In this document: one piece after another, positions 3,795 through 32,326 of the stretch
How positions within the stretch are numbered: the stretch's first letter is position 1
Layout: each line of letters begins with the position of its first letter
Assembly: GCA_944391325.1 (NCBI GenBank)
Contig: CALXTC010000003.1
Location: 1-33,915 of the forward strand
Source of the DNA: an uncultured Candidatus Saccharibacteria bacterium
GTDB lineage: Bacteria > Patescibacteriota > Saccharimonadia > Saccharimonadales > Saccharimonadaceae
Reading direction: 5' to 3'
DNA: 33,915 bases
Program-made: the position numbers and the translations under genes
Notes under the pieces: generated by a model
Database searches by the model: none
Told to the model about the DNA's origin: nothing
The model's input: only the letters and a program-made list of their open reading frames with translations

Positions 3795-4856
3795 GTGATT
3801 TTGTATATTACTATCGGCGTGTTGAGTGTATTGGTTATTGTACTGGTTGTGGTTGTGGCTAAGCTGTCGGTTGGCGGGCGAAAAAATAATGATTACTTGC
3901 AGACTGATCTAATCAACCTACGCCAGGAGGTGGCTGATTTAACGACAACCCTAAATCAGACATTAACTGATCGTATGGACAAAACGCAAAGCTCTATGCA
4001 GTTCCAACTACGCCAGTCATCGGCTTTAATCAATGATGTTAGTCGTCGATTAACTAAGCTGGACGAAACGAATAAGCGCGTTGTTGATGTGGCTGACGAG
4101 CTGAAAACGTTGCAGAATGTTTTGCAGAATCCAAAGCAACGTGGTGTGTTCGGGGAATTCTATCTAAACTCAATTCTGGATAATGTATTGCCGCCAGGGC
4201 AATGGCGGGCGCAATACAAATTCCGAGATGGCGAAATTGTTGACGCAGTAATTTTTCTGGATAAAAATCGAATATTGCCAATTGATTCTAAGTTTAGTCT
4301 AGAAAATTACAATCGCTATATCGAGGCTAAGGACAAAGAAACTAAGTCCAAGCTGTTGACGCGGGTAAAAATGGATCTAAAAAATCGAATTGATGAAACA
4401 GCCAAATATATTCGGCCCAACGAAAACACAATGGATTTTGCCTTTATGTTTATACCTAGCGAGAGCCTGTATTATGATTTGCTGATTAGTAATGTGGGGC
4501 AGGGTGGTTCATCGCGTGACCTGATTGAGTATGCCTTTCGGGATAAGCGAGTAATTATTACTAGTCCGACTAGCTTTATGGCTTACCTAGAAACGGTTCT
4601 GCAGGGTTTGAGGAGCTTGCAGATTGAGGAGCAGGCTAAGGAAATTCAAAAACGAGTAGCCCAATTAGGCGTGCATATTGCTAAATACGACGAGTATATG
4701 AGTAAACTAGGTAATAGCCTAGGTACCACTGTTAACCACTTTAATAATGCCTACAAAGAGTTTGCTAAGGTCGACAAGGATGTGGTAAAAATCGCCAACG
4801 ACGGCAGCCAGTCGCGCATTTCGCCAGAGCCAGTTGATCGACCCAATGTTAGCTAG
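3795..4856 (+). CDS. rmuC: RmuC-family DNA recombination protein
   Basis: A 353-residue protein with an N-terminal membrane helix (about 2-24), a coiled-coil segment (about 35-110) and an RmuC nuclease-like domain. The domain contains GVFGEFYLNSIL, then ILPIDSKFSLENY, which carries the acidic and lysine residues of the PD-(D/E)xK-like core. RmuC proteins limit inversions at short inverted repeats in E. coli. The chosen start is GTG at 3795 because AGGAGA (3780-3785) lies nine bases upstream, overlapping the end of the ATPase gene. The C-terminus (RISPEPVDRPNVS) is a short polar tail. The family assignment is secure; its role in this organism is inferred. Confidence 0.88.
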   Translation: MILYITIGVLSVLVIVLVVVVAKLSVGGRKNNDYLQTDLINLRQEVADLTTTLNQTLTDRMDKTQSSMQFQLRQSSALINDVSRRLTKLDETNKRVVDVADELKTLQNVLQNPKQRGVFGEFYLNSILDNVLPPGQWRAQYKFRDGEIVDAVIFLDKNRILPIDSKFSLENYNRYIEAKDKETKSKLLTRVKMDLKNRIDETAKYIRPNENTMDFAFMFIPSESLYYDLLISNVGQGGSSRDLIEYAFRDKRVIITSPTSFMAYLETVLQGLRSLQIEEQAKEIQKRVAQLGVHIAKYDEYMSKLGNSLGTTVNHFNNAYKEFAKVDKDVVKIANDGSQSRISPEPVDRPNVS

Positions 4857-4862
4857 CGTCTG

Positions 4863-4887
4863 TGCTATAATAGCCAGTAGCACTATG
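4863..4887 (+). promoter_or_regulatory. Extended -10 promoter of the large surface-protein gene
   Basis: TGcTATAAT at 4863-4871 predicts a transcript start near 4878. The first in-frame ATG after it is at 4885 (leader about 7 bases). If translation instead starts at TTG 5053, the leader is about 175 bases and contains the palindromic elements. Confidence 0.6.
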
Positions 4888-7827
4888 GCCTGGTGGAACA
4901 AAACCAATAAAAACCTAGTAGGGGGGGGTAATTCCCAGAACCTAAACCAACGGTTTAGTTTTACCTCCCCTACTAGGAAAGGTAACTTACAAGGACGACC
5001 GCAGAATAACCGGCATTCTCTACACCTTGCCTCCCCTGCTAGGGGAGGTGACTTGCATCGCAAGTCGGTGGGGTTTAAAACCCTCACTATCGCTTGCTTA
5101 GCCTTAGCCCTCATTAGTACCATCTCCCTCAACATCATCAGAACCTACTCCATCAATAACACTCGGACTAATGCTCTAGGCAATGCTGCCTCAGGCATAA
5201 CTACCCAAAGTGCTAGCGATGGTAATGCTCTAACTGGCCCCGCATCCATCTCTCTTAAACTATCCCCAGTTACCACCAATACCACTAGTAACCCAGATAA
5301 CGGCTCAGCTCTCGTATCGCTTAGCATACCAGCCGATGGTGGCATTGCTGTTGGTGGACACAATATTACTATTAATACCAACAGCCCTAGTGGCTGGTAT
5401 ATGACAGCCACTGCTAATAGTAATGATGGTACGACTAATCTAGTTAATACTAATGACAACAGCAAGGTTATTCCAACACTACCAAATACTGTCACTATTA
5501 AAAATGCAACCAAACTAACAGATAACACCTGGGGTGTGGCATTGCCATATGGTGATTGGCTAGCTGCTGGTTATTACAATGACGAGGTAGACTACTTATC
5601 TAACGATCAATCCACTTTAGCTAACACAGTCTGGACGTCAATGGACCATATCAACAGCTTGTTGGACGATGAACGTGGCATTGCCTCGCAACAAGCCACC
5701 GGTCCAGCTACTCGCCATATCTACTATGGCGTCCGGGTAGATAAACCAGACAAACTATTAGCCGGCGACTACCAAATAAAGGTCACCTATACCGCCACTG
5801 CCATCCTCCCACCAGCCCCAGAACTAACCAAACTAGTCCTTAATGACTCAGTCCAACAGAACCAAACCAGTGAGTTTGCCATAGAGGGTACTAACCTAGA
5901 TACCGTCTATGATGTCTGGATAGACTATAACGACAATGGCATAGAAGATGCTAATGAAAAGGCTACTAATGTCACTACCTATCCCAATACCGACAAAGCC
6001 GGTACCATCATCTCCTTTACTAATCCCAACCCAACTAGCAACACCGTCTCACCTGGCACCTATGATGTCTATGCTGTTAGTCAAGGTGGTACCTCCCAAC
6101 CCCTAACTGATGCCTTCATTGTCCAAGAACAATCTACCTGCCGTAATGGTGATCCTAATTCAGACTGCCAAGTAGACATAGATGACAATATGATCCCCAT
6201 CTACTATGCCGGTAATAACACAGATGGTTCTGCTATATGGAAAGTAGCCAATGTTAACAACCCAGGTGAATGGTATGACTATACTAAGAAGCAGTGGGCT
6301 AATGCTGTCACTGTCCAATCCGGCAAACTCACCACCTACAAGAACAAACCGGGTACAACCATTAACAACAATGATGTCCTCGGCTACTGGGTCTACATCC
6401 CTAGATACGCCTATGAAGTCCAACGTCCTAATGCCATAGACAGAGTAGTCACTGATGAATACCCATTACCAGACAACAAGGTAACTAACAACTACAATAG
6501 CCATTCCATTAGAAATGAATTCTCCATTCACTTTGAAAAAGCCGCAGATACTAAGAAAACACCTGCTGAAACATGTAACACCCTAAACATAACCAGACCT
6601 AACCAAATGTGGGCTAATGGCACACCAACAGCAGAAGCCGGTCCAGACAACACTAACATCCTAGCCAAAGACTACCGTACTGGTTGTGCTGCTCCAGGCA
6701 ATACCAATGGTCAAAACAGCACGACCATCTCCAGGCTATATACCGATGCCACTACCCAAACAGGAACTAACACTACAGCCAACAATACCACCTGGGCTAC
6801 TCACCCAGCCTTTACATTCGGCAACACTGAATTAAACGGTCTCTGGATTGGTAAGTTTGAAACCACTGGTAAGGTTAATACCCCAACCATTAAGCCTAAC
6901 CAACATGCTAATACCTATGAATATGTTGGTACATTCTATACTATGGCCAAGTATATTGGAGTGCTTGATCCTAGAAATACTGGCGGCAATAATGTTAGTG
7001 GACTTAGTGCAAATTCTCACCACTTGGATAGTGCCACAACCCACATGATGAAAAATTCAGAATGGGGCGCAACCGCATATTTATCTTCGTCAAAATATGG
7101 AGCTGGTACTAACAATGTTCTTATAAATGCGGCTTATCCATCGGCTAGCTCAGATCAAGACGGCACACTGTCAGCATATGGAATTACGGGTTGTGGTCCA
7201 TATGATGACATAAATATCACACTCCGTTATTCTGATGGTGTATCTCTCGGGTCGAATATAATCGAATCACCAAATGCTTGCTCTAATGATTCTAAATTAG
7301 GGCTACAACGTGCATATAATGGCGATATCGGTCAATTAGCCAGCACGACTAATAACGTCTATGGCGTCTATGATATGTCTGGCGGGTCTTCTGAGTATGT
7401 TGCCGCAAATTTGACAAATACCAATACTGCGTCAACTGCTGGTGCTAGCAGTCAGTATTTTGTCTATGGCGTGGGTGAGCCATATGTTGATTTATATTAT
7501 GAATCAACTGGCGGATTTAATGTTGCTTCAAAGTGGTCGTATAGCTCTAGTTCACAGGCTTATAATAACGAAGCTTGTACATGGGCTACTTGTGGTGGTG
7601 ACGCTATCCATGAGACAAAAAGATACCAGGCTGTGTCTGGTAGTTCGCAATCATGGGGCAATGATACGGCTTATTTTCCGTATGGTGCGTTTAGATGGTT
7701 TCATAGAGGCGGCACTGCTGGTCATTCGGGAGGAGGTGCTGGTTTATTCTTTATGGGGCCAGAGTCCGGTATTCGATGGAACTCTTATGCTGTTAGGGCT
7801 GTTTTATTATCCTTTTCAACATCCTAG
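4885..7827 (+). CDS. Large surface protein with C-terminal lectin/FGE-like domain
   Basis: A 980-residue protein if started at ATG 4885, which follows the -10 box; the in-frame ATG at 4834 lies upstream of the promoter. Residues about 66-85 form a signal anchor. Then come an Asn/Thr-rich beta region (GHNITINTNSPSGWYMTAT), an IPT/TIG-like segment ending PGTYDVYAVSQGGTS, and a C-terminal half from about residue 430. That half has the landmarks of the lectin-fold formylglycine-enzyme-like family: YWVYIPRYAYEV, HPAFTFGNTELNGLWIGKFE, MMKNSEWGATAYLSSSKYG, VYGVYDMSGGSSEYV, and a final FRWFHRGG ... SYAVRAVL. It is probably displayed on the cell surface and binds a ligand. Base and codon use shift near 6950. 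The true start is uncertain: TTG 5053, five bases after GGGGAGG, also gives a good signal peptide. Confidence 0.85.
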   Translation: MAWWNKTNKNLVGGGNSQNLNQRFSFTSPTRKGNLQGRPQNNRHSLHLASPARGGDLHRKSVGFKTLTIACLALALISTISLNIIRTYSINNTRTNALGNAASGITTQSASDGNALTGPASISLKLSPVTTNTTSNPDNGSALVSLSIPADGGIAVGGHNITINTNSPSGWYMTATANSNDGTTNLVNTNDNSKVIPTLPNTVTIKNATKLTDNTWGVALPYGDWLAAGYYNDEVDYLSNDQSTLANTVWTSMDHINSLLDDERGIASQQATGPATRHIYYGVRVDKPDKLLAGDYQIKVTYTATAILPPAPELTKLVLNDSVQQNQTSEFAIEGTNLDTVYDVWIDYNDNGIEDANEKATNVTTYPNTDKAGTIISFTNPNPTSNTVSPGTYDVYAVSQGGTSQPLTDAFIVQEQSTCRNGDPNSDCQVDIDDNMIPIYYAGNNTDGSAIWKVANVNNPGEWYDYTKKQWANAVTVQSGKLTTYKNKPGTTINNNDVLGYWVYIPRYAYEVQRPNAIDRVVTDEYPLPDNKVTNNYNSHSIRNEFSIHFEKAADTKKTPAETCNTLNITRPNQMWANGTPTAEAGPDNTNILAKDYRTGCAAPGNTNGQNSTTISRLYTDATTQTGTNTTANNTTWATHPAFTFGNTELNGLWIGKFETTGKVNTPTIKPNQHANTYEYVGTFYTMAKYIGVLDPRNTGGNNVSGLSANSHHLDSATTHMMKNSEWGATAYLSSSKYGAGTNNVLINAAYPSASSDQDGTLSAYGITGCGPYDDINITLRYSDGVSLGSNIIESPNACSNDSKLGLQRAYNGDIGQLASTTNNVYGVYDMSGGSSEYVAANLTNTNTASTAGASSQYFVYGVGEPYVDLYYESTGGFNVASKWSYSSSSQAYNNEACTWATCGGDAIHETKRYQAVSGSSQSWGNDTAYFPYGAFRWFHRGGTAGHSGGGAGLFFMGPESGIRWNSYAVRAVLLSFSTS
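4914..4977. repeat. Palindromic repeat element, copy 1, inside coding sequence
   Basis: An outer inverted repeat pairs CCTAGTAGGGGGGGGTAA (4914-4931) with TTACCTCCCCTACTAGG (4961-4977), with one extra G and one mismatch. An inner hairpin pairs CTAAACC (4942-4948) with GGTTTAG (4952-4958). The frame stays open through it, encoding a low-complexity stretch ahead of the signal anchor. Confidence 0.7.
5029..5088. repeat. Palindromic repeat element, copy 2, inside coding sequence
   Basis: Three consecutive hairpins: CCTCCCC (5030-5036) with GGGGAGG (5042-5048); ACTTGC (5051-5056) with GCAAGT (5060-5065); and GGGTTT/AAACCC centred near 5077. The first hairpin shares the CCTCCCCT.CTAGG core with copy 1. 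Elements of this style (short GC-rich arms, CTCCCC...GGGGAG) are usually extragenic in other bacteria. Here one is translated in frame (ASPARGGDLHRKSVGF) directly before the signal anchor. Confidence 0.65.
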
Positions 7828-22417: not shown

Positions 22418-22936
22418 ATGAGTGATTTAGTGAAAGAGATTTCCGACGCCCAGAAAAAGCCAGCTGTGGTCGATGTCCGCAGTGGTGATACTGTTCGCGT
22501 CTATCAGAAAATTCAAGAGGGCAACAAGAGTCGTATTCAGATGTTCGAGGGCGTGGTTATTCGTACAGATCGCAAGAACTCGTCTACCAGTCGCATTACC
22601 GTTCGCCGTATTGCCTCTGGTGTCGGTGTTGAAAAGTCATATCTGTTGCATTCTCCATTGGTGGAAAAGGTCGAGGTTATCAAGCGTGGTAAGGTACGAC
22701 GCAATTATCTATCATACCTACGCAATCGCTTTGGCAAGTCGGCTCGCTTAGTCAGCAAGGCGTTTGACAAGAGCATCAATGACATCCACGATGAAGCAGC
22801 AGAGTCTGCTGAGGCTGAGGCTAAGGCAGAGGCTAAAGCTGCTGCAGAGGCCAAGGCTGCTGAAAAGGCTGCGGCTCAAGCTGAGTTGGATGCCAAGGCT
22901 GCCGAGGTGGCTGCTCGCCATGAAGAGAACAAATAG
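22418..22936 (+). CDS. rplS: Ribosomal protein L19 with Ala/Glu/Lys tail
   Basis: A 172-residue protein. Residues 1-112 are a normal L19 (GDTVRVYQKIQEGNKSRIQ, FEGVVIR, SGVGVEKSYLLHSP, GKVRRNYLSYLRN). Residues about 113-172 are an added helical tail of repeated AEAKAEA-type units, encoded by near-repeated GCTGAGGCTAAGG blocks (about 22800-22915). L19 sits at the subunit interface of the large ribosomal subunit; the tail is not part of the core fold. The 3' end overlaps the next gene's start by 17 bases, so the tail's DNA also carries the initiation region of rnhB. Confidence 0.96.
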   Translation: MSDLVKEISDAQKKPAVVDVRSGDTVRVYQKIQEGNKSRIQMFEGVVIRTDRKNSSTSRITVRRIASGVGVEKSYLLHSPLVEKVEVIKRGKVRRNYLSYLRNRFGKSARLVSKAFDKSINDIHDEAAESAEAEAKAEAKAAAEAKAAEKAAAQAELDAKAAEVAARHEENK

Positions 22937-23891
22937 TCACATAACGGTTGGTATAGATGAAGTAGGGCGCGGTCCATGGGCCGGCCCTTTATTAGTGTCG
23001 GCAGCAGCACTAGACATGTCGCAGACTTACTGTGGTCTGGATGACAGCAAAAAGCTGACTAAAAAGCGTCGCTCTGCCATGGCTATATATATCAAGCAGC
23101 AGGCCCTGGGGATAGGGCTAGGTTGGGTCGATGTTAACGAGCTGGATCAATTGGGCATGACCAAGAGTTTGAAACTTGGAGCTAGACGAGCGTTCAGTCA
23201 GTTGCCAATTAACGTACAAACAGATGCGGCTCAGATCGTTATAGATGGCAACATCCTCATGCTAGATGACTCGCGCGCAATAGCAGTGGTTAAGGCTGAC
23301 GCTAAGGTTCAGGCGGTCTCGGCGGCTTCAATTGTGGCGAAAGTGGCTAGGGACAGCTATATGGCTCAGTTAGATAGAGTCTTTCCTGGGTATGGTTTTG
23401 CTAAACATGCTGGTTATGGCACTAAACAGCATTTAGAAGCTCTTGGCCAATTGGGTGTTATACAGGGTGTCCACCGAAGTAGTTTTGCGCCGATCAAACG
23501 ATTACTCGGGGATGATACTGACAACCAATCTGTTCGTCCAGTTGAACAAACGGCTGGCCGGATTGCTGAGAGCGTGGCTGCGGAGTATCTGGCTTCTTGC
23601 GGATTTACTATAGTTGAACGTAATTGGAAGACCAAGTTGTGTGAAATAGATATTGTAGCGGTAAAGGATAAGACGATATATTTTGTCGAGGTGAAATATC
23701 GTAGCAATAATGCCTGTGGGGATGGTGTAGAGGCTATTACTGCCCGAAAACAAAAACAGATGCGGTTTGCTGCCGAGATATACCTGCATGACCACCCGGA
23801 AACTAATCGTGGCTATTCGCCAGCGCTGTTAGCAGTGTCATTATTGGGGCGTAGCCCAACTGTAGATCAACTGATTGACGTTGACTATTAA
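22920..23891 (+). CDS. rnhB: RNase HII fused to a YraN-type nuclease-like domain
   Basis: A 323-residue protein with two domains in one frame. Residues about 8-200 are RNase HII: VGIDEVGRGPWAGPL (the Asp-Glu-Gly of the active site), GLDDSKKLT, then AQIVIDG and VKADAKVQAVSAASIVAKVARD, and a YGFAKHAGYGTKQHLEAL end. Residues about 213-323 are a UPF0102/YraN domain: AAEYLASCGF, VERNWKTKLCEIDIVAVKD and FVEVKYRSN, the PD-(D/E)xK-like Glu-Asp-Glu-x-Lys set. RNase HII removes ribonucleotides from DNA; YraN proteins are putative DNA-processing factors. Upstream in-frame Met codons lie within rplS in another frame and were rejected. ATG 22920 overlaps the rplS end, which suggests translational coupling. 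Confidence 0.93.
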   Translation: MKRTNSHITVGIDEVGRGPWAGPLLVSAAALDMSQTYCGLDDSKKLTKKRRSAMAIYIKQQALGIGLGWVDVNELDQLGMTKSLKLGARRAFSQLPINVQTDAAQIVIDGNILMLDDSRAIAVVKADAKVQAVSAASIVAKVARDSYMAQLDRVFPGYGFAKHAGYGTKQHLEALGQLGVIQGVHRSSFAPIKRLLGDDTDNQSVRPVEQTAGRIAESVAAEYLASCGFTIVERNWKTKLCEIDIVAVKDKTIYFVEVKYRSNNACGDGVEAITARKQKQMRFAAEIYLHDHPETNRGYSPALLAVSLLGRSPTVDQLIDVDY

Positions 23892-28674: not shown

Positions 28675-29721
28675 ATGGAAGGATTAGATATTAAGCAGCT
28701 GTCCGCCACTATTCGTGCAATAGCCGATGAAAAGAATCTACCTGAGGAAACTGTTTTGCAGGCTGTCGAGGCTGCTATTGCCGCTGCTTGGCGCCGCGAT
28801 AATGGTGATCGCGATATGAATGTACGCGCTGTGTTAAACCAGAATGATGGTACGGCTAAAATTATTGTGCATTATGATGTTGTCGAGACTCCTGAGGGTA
28901 TTGGCCAAATTACCCTAGATGAGGCAAAGAAGATCGACAAAGATGCCTTGCTAAATGGTGTTATCGAACAGGAGTACGAGGCGACGAGTTTTGGTCGTGT
29001 GGCGGCGCAAACCGCTAAGCAGGTGCTGATGCAAAAATTGCGTGAGTATGAACGCGAAAGCTTGGCCAGGGAGTATGACGATAAGGTTGGCAAGCTAATT
29101 ACCGGAACTGTCGCTAGGGTTGAGCCACGCGTTGTTCGCATTGAGTTAGGCCATGGTGAGGGCATTATGCCGGCTAGCGAGCAGATTCCCGGCGAGCGCT
29201 TAATGGTTGGCAGTCGAGTACGTGTTCTGCTAAAAATTATTGACCGTGAAAGCAATCGTGGACCAACGATTATTTTGTCGCGTGCTGATCCAAACTTTGT
29301 TAAATTGCTATTCATCCAGGAAGTCCCTGAAACAGAAACTGGTGCTGTCGAGATCAAGGCGATTGCCCGTGAGGCTGGACGTCGCACTAAAATTGCCGTC
29401 TATAGTGGTAATAACGAAATTGACCCAGTTGGGACCTTTGTCGGAACCAAGGGTGTTCGGGTTCAGGCCGTTATGAATGAAATTGGCGATTCTGAAAAGA
29501 TTGATATCATCACCTATGATAACGATTCGCGTAATTATATCGCCAATGCTCTCAGCCCAGCCGAAATTGATCGGATTGATCTGGACGAAGACGAGAAGAA
29601 GGCGACGGTGTACGTGGCGCCTCAGCAACAGTCCGTGGCTATTGGCAAGCAAGGGCAAAATGTTCGGCTAGCTTCGCAGCTGACTGGTTATTCAATCGAC
29701 ATTGTTGCCGAGGGTGAATAA
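28675..29721 (+). CDS. nusA: Transcription termination/antitermination factor NusA
   Basis: A 348-residue NusA of the short type. An N-terminal RNA polymerase-binding domain (about 1-130, with EETVLQAVEAAIAAAWRR) is followed by an S1 domain (about 137-205, KLITGTVARVEPRVVRIEL, GIMP), then KH1 (about 210-280, with ETGAVEIKAIAREAGRRTKIAV, DPVGTFVGTKGVRVQAV) and KH2 (VAIGKQGQNVRLASQLTGY). The C-terminal acidic repeats found in E. coli are absent, as in most bacteria. It promotes pausing and hairpin termination. rimP, the usual upstream partner, is not adjacent. Confidence 0.96.
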   Translation: MEGLDIKQLSATIRAIADEKNLPEETVLQAVEAAIAAAWRRDNGDRDMNVRAVLNQNDGTAKIIVHYDVVETPEGIGQITLDEAKKIDKDALLNGVIEQEYEATSFGRVAAQTAKQVLMQKLREYERESLAREYDDKVGKLITGTVARVEPRVVRIELGHGEGIMPASEQIPGERLMVGSRVRVLLKIIDRESNRGPTIILSRADPNFVKLLFIQEVPETETGAVEIKAIAREAGRRTKIAVYSGNNEIDPVGTFVGTKGVRVQAVMNEIGDSEKIDIITYDNDSRNYIANALSPAEIDRIDLDEDEKKATVYVAPQQQSVAIGKQGQNVRLASQLTGYSIDIVAEGE

Positions 29722-29758
29722 ATTTTGACCAAAACTGGCGAATTGCCGAAAACGATAG

Positions 29759-29785
29759 CTGGCACTCTTGATAGTAGAGTGCCAG
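29759..29785. promoter_or_regulatory. CIRCE-like operator upstream of clpC
   Basis: CTGGCACTC, nine bases, GAGTGCCAG is a perfect inverted repeat. The HrcA-binding CIRCE consensus is TTAGCACTC-N9-GAGTGCTAA, so each arm matches at 7 of 9 positions with the same 9-base spacing. TTGATA (29768-29773), the clpC -35 box, lies inside the spacer. The same hairpin, followed by GTTTGTTATT, could also terminate nusA transcripts. Confidence 0.7.
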
Positions 29786-29806
29786 TTTGTTATTATTAAA
29801 ATTATG
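29768..29806 (+). promoter_or_regulatory. clpC promoter, leaderless start
   Basis: TTGATA (29768-29773), a 17-base spacer and TGtTATTAT (hexamer 29791-29796) form a near-consensus promoter ending seven bases before ATG 29804. Confidence 0.7.
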
Positions 29807-32326
29807 GATGCCGAGAAGCGTTTTACGGACAACGCCAGGATGGCAGTTCTTCAGGCTGAAGTGCTGGCTCATCTTAGCCAGTCTTCGTTGATTGAGACTA
29901 GCCACCTATTGTTAGCTATTGCCAACCAGGAAAACTCAGTAGGTGCCAAGGTCCTGCGAGATTTTAATCTAGACGTGTCCACCTTGCGCCGCGAGGTTGA
30001 TATAAAGCCTGGGGTAGTAGTAGCTGGCGGGACGTCAATGATGCGCTTTTCTAGGGCGATGGAATTGACCATGGAAATGGCAATGGCATTGGCTAAGGAA
30101 ATGCGTCAGGGTCGATGTGGTACGGCACATATCCTGTACGCCATCCTAAGCCAACGCCGTTCGCGTGCTGTTAAATTATTATCAGATCAACAAATAGATA
30201 TCGATAAGCTATCTGGTGAGTTGGCTAAGTATCTTGACGGCTCGTCGATGCCGGATGAGGGCTTTGAACTTGACGAGGATACTCAAGAGGAATCTTGGCG
30301 TTCGCGTTTTTCGCCAGGTCGAGGGGGTAGATTAGCGACAACAATCCTTGAGATATACTCGACCGATCTGACTAAATCGGCTAAGGACGGTAAGTTGGAT
30401 CCGGTTATCGGGCGGGATCAGGAAATTGATCGGTTGATCACGATTATTAGCCGTCGAACAAAAAATAATCCGATTCTGATTGGCGAAGCGGGCGTTGGTA
30501 AAACGGCAGTTGTCGAGGGGCTGGCTCAACGAATTGCTAGTGGTAAGGTGCCGGATTTTCTGTCGAATCGGCGGGTCCTTGAGGTTGATTTGGCGGCCAT
30601 GGTGGCTGGTACGAAATACCGTGGTCAGTTTGAGGAGCTCCTAAAATCATTAATCAAGGAAGCTGAAAAGGACGACCGAGTTATTCTCTTTATCGATGAA
30701 GTGCATTTGGTTGTTGGTACTGGTGCAGCCGAGGGTAGCATGGACGCGGCTAATTTGCTAAAACCGGCACTAGCTAGGGGCAAGATTCATCTAATCGGGG
30801 CGACGACCAATGATGAGTATCGTAAATATATTGAAAAAGATGCTGCTCTAACGCGACGAATGCAGCCTGTAGCAATTGACCAGCCAAGCGCTAAAGATAC
30901 GGTTCGTATTCTAACTGGTCTGGCACCAAAATATGAGGAATATCATCATGTTCGTGTGTCCAAGGCGGTTATCGACGAGATAGTCCGTTTAAGCGAACGT
31001 TATCTAACCGAGCGACAACAGCCCGACAAAGCCATTGATGTTTTAGATGAAACTGCCGCTCGTGTTCACGTGGCTAACGCTAATAGCGACGTAGCGAATG
31101 AGTTGAGGGATTGTCAATCTGAAATCGATAAGTTGACGGCAGATATGGAACAGGCCGTTTCCGAGGAAGATTACGAGCATGCCGCCCTATATAAAATGCG
31201 TATTAGTCAGCTAAAGGAAAAGGTTGAGACATTGCAGAGCTCGCAAACCGAAGCAGGCTATACCACCATTAAGTTGAATGACGTAGCTGCGACAGTCAGT
31301 CGGATGACTGGTGTGCCACTAGAACAACTAAGGCGCTCCGAGATAACTAAATTGGTTAATCTAGAAAAACGCTTGTCTAAACGAGTAATTGGTCAAGACC
31401 AAGCCGTGTCAGTTGTGTCGCAGGCCATTCGGCGATCTCGGGCGGGGATATCCGATCCAAACCGACCAATTGGCTCATTTATCTTCCTAGGCCCAACTGG
31501 TGTTGGCAAAACTGAGCTAGCCAGGGTATTGGCTGACGAGGTCTTTGGATCTCCAGATAGCTTAATTAAGGTTGATATGAGCGAGTTTTCTGAGCGTCAT
31601 ACTGTATCACGTTTGGTTGGGGCTCCCGCTGGCTATGTCGGTTATGATGACGGCGGCCAGCTGACCGAGCGAGTCCGTCGACAACCGTATTCAGTTGTTC
31701 TGTTCGACGAGATAGAAAAGGCTCATCCAGATGTGTTTAACGTGTTGTTACAGATTTTAGAGGACGGAGTGTTGACTGACGGTCACGGCAAGAGAGTTGA
31801 TTTCCGTAACTGCGTCATCATATTGACCAGCAATATCGGGGCAGCTGAAATGGCTAACGATGCAGTTGGCTTTACGGTCGGTCGCGATGAGCAGAGCGAG
31901 TCCTTGGCGGATGATCGCAAAGAAGTCGTTATGAAGGCACTACGCAGTTCGATGCGCCCAGAACTTTTGAATCGCTTTGACCAGATAGTAATGTTTAACA
32001 GCCTAGGACAAAAAGAGATTAGTCTAATCTTTGATCTACTGCTAGATGATTTGAATAAGCGTCTGTCGGGTAAAGGTATGGCGATGATGGTCTCACCTAA
32101 GCTAAAACGCTGGTTAATTGAACGTGGCTACGATAGCAAAATGGGCGCTCGTCCATTGCGGCGCATAATCCAAAACGAGCTAGAACGGGTGGTTGCTGAT
32201 CAGATTATCGGCGGTAAACTTCGTCGAGGTGATATAGTGCGAGCCGACTTAAAGGGTGATAAGGTTGTTCTAGTTCAACAATCAGAACATGCCTCGTCTC
32301 GCCGTTCGACGGCCAAAGTATCGTAG
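29804..32326 (+). CDS. clpC: ClpC-type AAA+ chaperone/protease subunit
   Basis: An 840-residue double-AAA+ unfoldase. The Clp N-domain (about 1-140) begins [13 protein letters not shown]. The first AAA+ module has Walker [10 protein letters not shown] and Walker [11 protein letters not shown] middle domain of about 50 residues contains a UVR-like motif ([20 protein letters not shown]), typical of ClpC rather than ClpB. The second AAA+ module has GPTGVGKTE and [16 protein letters not shown], and a ClpB-D2-small C-terminal domain follows ([14 protein letters not shown]). It feeds proteins to ClpP. ATG 29804 is chosen over the in-frame ATG at 29768 because the latter lies within the operator and -35 box. 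Confidence 0.95.

Follow-up and report, generated by a model that had tools for sequence, protein, structure and literature searches.

The class I heat shock regulon of Bacillus subtilis and many other bacteria is built from HrcA and its CIRCE operator, with GroEL as the canonical HrcA co-repressor, and elsewhere among Gram-positive bacteria clpC is controlled by CtsR, in most of them, or by ClgR. Saccharibacteria live as ultrasmall epibionts and have few regulators. In the delta-proteobacteria, groESL is the sole constant CIRCE target, and sigma-32 governs the clp genes (PMC545781). The CtsR targets of L. plantarum also include hsp1 (PMC3842655). In the Mollicutes, which have small genomes, HrcA acts over dnaK, clpB, and lon (PMC5138195), and protease control by HrcA is thus not unprecedented. 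HrcA, CIRCE, and ClpC are all already known, but a regulon make-up that includes clpC is not described for Saccharibacteria in the open-access papers searched, in which we found no paper that pairs HrcA in substance with Saccharibacteria, CPR, or Patescibacteria, and none that reports a CIRCE upstream of clpC.

The window, the whole stretch of 33,915 nucleotides analyzed here, is one contig of a 624-kb assembly that is 78% complete. The region around the start of its clpC gene is organized as follows (window positions):

28675..29721, plus strand: nusA, the upstream neighbor of clpC
29757..29787, plus strand: RNA hairpin of the CIRCE arms and their flanks, then TGTTATTATT; possible secondary nusA terminator
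29759..29785, no strand assigned: CIRCE operator, CTGGCACTC-TTGATAGTA-GAGTGCCAG, a perfect 9+9 palindrome
29768..29773, plus strand: -35 box TTGATA, within the loop of the CIRCE
29791..29796, plus strand: -10 box TATTAT, preceded by TG, with a 17-nt spacer from the -35 box
29804..32326, plus strand: clpC, coding for Clp_N, two AAA modules, a UVR motif, and ClpB_D2-small

The clpC operator and promoter

The clpC product has a Walker A spacing of 336 residues, like ClpC-type proteins, and its best ClpC relatives in a species collection are in Candidatus Saccharibacteria genomes and in two labeled simply 'bacterium', from which the genome is taken to be a small, Saccharibacteria-like one and not that of a Firmicute. 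A longer reading frame starting with TTG (29768) is an unlikely clpC start because it overlaps the promoter, and ClpC homologues begin where the ATG-started protein does. Of 60 stretches examined, 43 have nusA on the upstream side of clpC.

Read directly, the repeat at 29759-29785 is ctggcactc-TTGATAGTA-gagtgccag, with arms of 9+9 bp without mismatch and a 9-nt loop. The core, GCACTC-N9-GAGTGC, is exact, and the departures from the textbook TTAGCACTC-N9-GAGTGCTAA amount to two differences per arm, placed symmetrically. The symmetric outer bases (CTG/CAG) recur at other sites, including sites in other genomes, and the published CIRCE of Desulfovibrio groESL has similar outer variants (PMC545781). 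The window contains this single match to the CIRCE pattern, and none is expected by chance (100 shuffles, even at three mismatches).

The best promoter of the region begins within the CIRCE loop (TTGATA/TATTAT), and the clpC ATG at 29804 lies 7 nt past the -10 box; the CIRCE thus lies at the promoter of a predicted heat shock gene. The original prediction had CTGGCACTC-N9-GAGTGCCAG bracketing TTGATA, with TATTAT 17 bases on and the ATG 7 later, all of which is exact on re-reading. It also attributed the spacing and core to an HrcA operator, and this holds, in that the repeat is a genuine CIRCE operator that recurs across Saccharibacteria and is a predicted HrcA target. The leaderless clpC start that it proposed is consistent with the sequence; with the ATG 7 nt after the -10 box, the clpC transcript is probably leaderless.

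Predicted HrcA targets across Saccharibacteria

If the clpC repeat is an HrcA operator, the genome should code for HrcA and carry related repeats at other heat shock genes, and both are found. The assembly contains hrcA, with grpE next after it, and both Pfam HrcA domains are above their cutoffs (PF01628, 67.5 bits, cutoff 22.2; PF03444, 23.2, cutoff 21). A generic CIRCE pattern with up to two mismatches has five palindromic sites in the 624-kb assembly, versus one for a reversed control pattern, and the five precede clpC, hsp20 (C13), hrcA-grpE, dnaK, and dnaJ (C16), all of which are heat shock genes. All five sites have the -35 box in the loop and the -10 box 17 to 18 nt further on; the ATG is 6 to 7 nt after the -10 box at clpC, hrcA, and dnaJ, and hsp20 and dnaK have leaders. 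Neither groEL nor clpP was found in this 78% complete assembly; in a genome of the same genus (G052, 95% complete), CIRCE sites are present at clpC, clpP, dnaJ, hsp20, dnaK, hrcA, and groES, the last with one mismatch.

The exact CIRCE pattern is present in 58 of 61 family genomes, and the reversed control in none of the 61. Among evaluable clpC genes of the class Saccharibacteria, 58 of 61 have a CIRCE (one mismatch at most) just upstream, made up of 46 of 49 evaluable family loci, all six best database relatives, and all six genomes from elsewhere in the order or class, outside the family. The exceptions are G038, in which clpC is ∼20 nt behind nusA with its own ribosome-binding site and lacks a CIRCE; G056, with no visible CIRCE at clpC; and G059, where both arms are altered together to give TTAGCAGTC-N9-GACTGCTAA, a symmetric variant whose loop contains TTGACA. 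A CIRCE is also upstream of clpP at 26 of 30 loci, and in a sample that started from CIRCE sites (most clpC sites being fetched separately), 63 of 65 precede dnaK, clpP, hrcA, dnaJ, groES, hsp20, or clpC.

The same search at ClpC loci of other bacteria, a few of which had little upstream DNA, gave a CIRCE in 0 of 74 at up to three mismatches. Extension of the CIRCE-clpC association to the whole phylum is unsupported; of the 14 ClpC genes that score best beyond the class, only 2 have a CIRCE, both of them in one family. Plain ClpC in other patescibacterial classes is mostly without one, with one family (f18) having a CIRCE in three genomes and another (f22) a degraded CIRCE at ClpC in two. These other classes also contain ten longer ClpC-type ATPases with a CIRCE upstream, a nonrandom sample picked for that CIRCE; four (L235, L242, L243, and L244) have an N-terminal, ClpE-like zinc finger. 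Assignment of the CIRCE-linked Clp ATPases of these classes to ClpB by length was rejected, as their Walker A spacing of 335 to 338 residues is ClpC-type.

The -35 core, TTG[ACT], is within the CIRCE loop at 116 of 129 gene-linked sites, compared with 31 expected from shuffled loops and 9 on the antisense strand. Both boxes are recognized at 121 sites, every one of them with a -35/-10 spacer of 16 to 18 nt, and the -10 box moves along where the -35 box moves within the loop. The outer arm bases vary symmetrically at 108 of 129 sites in one comparison (78.5 when shuffled) and at 111 of 129 in a second (87 when shuffled), and such variation beyond chance is the expected mark of an operator bound by a dimer. 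The ATG is 3 to 10 nt past the -10 box at 13 of 53 clpC sites, the remainder having longer leaders, and the same short distance is seen at most clpP (L185-L214) and nearly all hrcA and dnaJ CIRCE promoters. This spacing suggests that leaderless mRNAs are routine within the proposed HrcA regulon.

The operator, its overlap with the promoter, hrcA, the target set, its conservation, and the absence of CtsR are all observed in the sequences, and from them we infer that HrcA binds and represses and that heat lifts the repression. An HrcA dimer, encoded elsewhere in the genome, would bind the clpC CIRCE at normal temperature and cover the -35 box in the operator loop, excluding sigma-70-type RNA polymerase from the clpC start; direct occlusion is the simplest reading of the loop position. 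Upon heat or other protein-folding stress, HrcA would release the operator, and clpC would be made alongside hrcA-grpE, dnaK, dnaJ, and hsp20, and in relatives also groESL and clpP. It is highly probable that the CIRCE is bound by HrcA over the clpC -35 box and, with RNA polymerase blocked in this way, that the chaperones and ClpCP share one HrcA regulon; HrcA thus appears to be their common repressor in Saccharibacteria. Counted against an HrcA regulon of this kind are the compact HrcA, which falls short of an NCBIfam cutoff (see below), the clpC genes of G038 and G056 without a CIRCE, and a report that in TM7x co-culture one predicted clp protease moves opposite to most chaperones (PMC10768705).

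Comparison with known regulons and alternative roles of the repeat

The Saccharibacteria share with the class I regulon the operator core, the 9-nt loop, the hrcA-grpE cluster, dnaK and groES as targets, and, by prediction, hrcA autoregulation. They differ in having clpC and clpP as regular targets, dnaJ and hsp20 with their own CIRCE promoters, an operator built around the -35 box, and a compact HrcA. The Mollicute HrcA regulon is alike in belonging to small genomes and in placing a Clp ATPase and an ATP-dependent protease under HrcA; however, those are clpB and lon, compared to clpC and clpP in the unrelated Saccharibacteria. With the class III regulon of Firmicutes, the common element is the target genes clpC and clpP, whereas the regulator is not shared: CtsR was found in 0 of 61 family genomes in a search with a positive L. 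lactis control, and the CtsR operator, a GGTCAAA direct repeat, has no match in the window at three mismatches. CtsR control of clpC is therefore rejected. A wider possibility is that another repressor (CtsR-like, ClgR-like, or HspR-like) runs clpC and that the repeat is a relic, for which the role of CtsR or ClgR at clpC in other Gram-positive bacteria is a precedent, but the same absence of CtsR and its operator, together with selection on operator symmetry and -35 position across 129 sites, makes this very improbable. The original prediction spoke of a rewiring of clpC to HrcA; the HrcA site at clpC stands, but the Firmicute frame does not, and with CtsR absent from the lineage, rewiring can only mean that HrcA covers what CtsR does elsewhere.

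The repeat could also act as RNA. The clpC hairpin is stable (-19.4 kcal/mol, with the other four assembly sites at -8.7 to -17.4) and its stem is followed by a broken T tract; with nusA upstream, termination of read-through is possible. The proposal that the repeat doubles as the nusA terminator is compatible with the hairpin and T-rich tail, but these are not specific to clpC, because dnaK sites are equally T-rich (4.58 T's in the 8 nt after the stem at clpC sites, 4.53 at dnaK, and 4.56 at dnaJ). Taken further, the repeat might be only the intrinsic terminator of nusA and its likeness to CIRCE a matter of chance, as the well-folding stem and T-rich stretch would allow, and as would the end of nusA 37 nt upstream, with no other terminator-like site in the gap. 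This is extremely improbable and is ruled out by the genome-wide and comparative CIRCE data: the exact core and 9-nt loop occur at seven heat shock promoters, the -35 and -10 boxes are in register with the operator, the T content after the stem is no different at clpC, dnaK, and dnaJ sites, and CIRCE is kept at clpC where nusA is several hundred nucleotides off or not within the stretch examined. Termination does not explain why the repeat is there. A dual use, with the DNA serving as HrcA operator and the nusA read-through RNA as a terminator or insulator shielding clpC, is rather unlikely; it would fit the clpC hairpin being the most stable of the five, the short nusA gap (86 nt), and clpC arms above the consensus in GC, but the hsp20 CIRCE is almost equally stable (-17.4 kcal/mol) and clpC sites as a class have no T-tract enrichment.

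A compact HrcA and the role of GroEL

The HrcA protein is 244 aa long (L008:2520-3251), versus 338 model positions in the NCBIfam equivalog TIGR00331, against which it scores 175.5 bits, below the cutoff of 197.2; it is thus claimed here as a compact HrcA and not a canonical full-length one. Lengths across the lineage are ∼235 to 250 aa, the Pfam C-terminal matches in lineage genomes all start at profile position 68 or later, and the lineage HrcA is apparently short of ∼90 residues, located either between the C-terminal domains or inside them. The winged helix-turn-helix is well kept and close to that of Thermotoga maritima HrcA (1stz); a structure model has 1stz as its best PDB match, although at low confidence (pLDDT of 60), and carries no weight in the argument.

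HrcA is present in 59 of 61 family genomes, including every one of the 41 good-quality genomes. GroEL was not detected in 7 of these 41 (G007, G015, G057, G003, G006, G010, and G060), which are at least 90% complete and all have HrcA, and G007, G015, and G057 keep the CIRCE at clpC (loci L105, L128, and L119). HrcA repression is described as GroELS-dependent in lactic acid bacteria (PMC3842655), and GroEL-less genomes with a clpC CIRCE bring this dependence into question in Saccharibacteria. We tentatively propose, as a possibility falling somewhat short of an even call, that one master repressor, a shortened HrcA, governs both the chaperones and the ClpCP protease, so that the class I and class III regulons become one, and that it acts also in near-complete genomes without detectable GroEL. 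Such an HrcA could not need GroEL everywhere as co-repressor, and may sense heat itself or use another chaperone. The Saccharibacteria would then be a natural test of the need of HrcA for GroEL, and a one-repressor proteostasis regulon would provide both a concrete model, open to testing, of how they respond to stress and an evolutionary alternative to CtsR.

Elsewhere in the window, positions 4834-7827 code for a protein of 997 aa that is predicted to be secreted or at the surface and matches nothing in Pfam. The open frame at 22764-23891 codes for RNase HII and, after it, a UPF0102 (YraN-type) nuclease-like domain and is a natural fusion of two genes that are usually adjacent.
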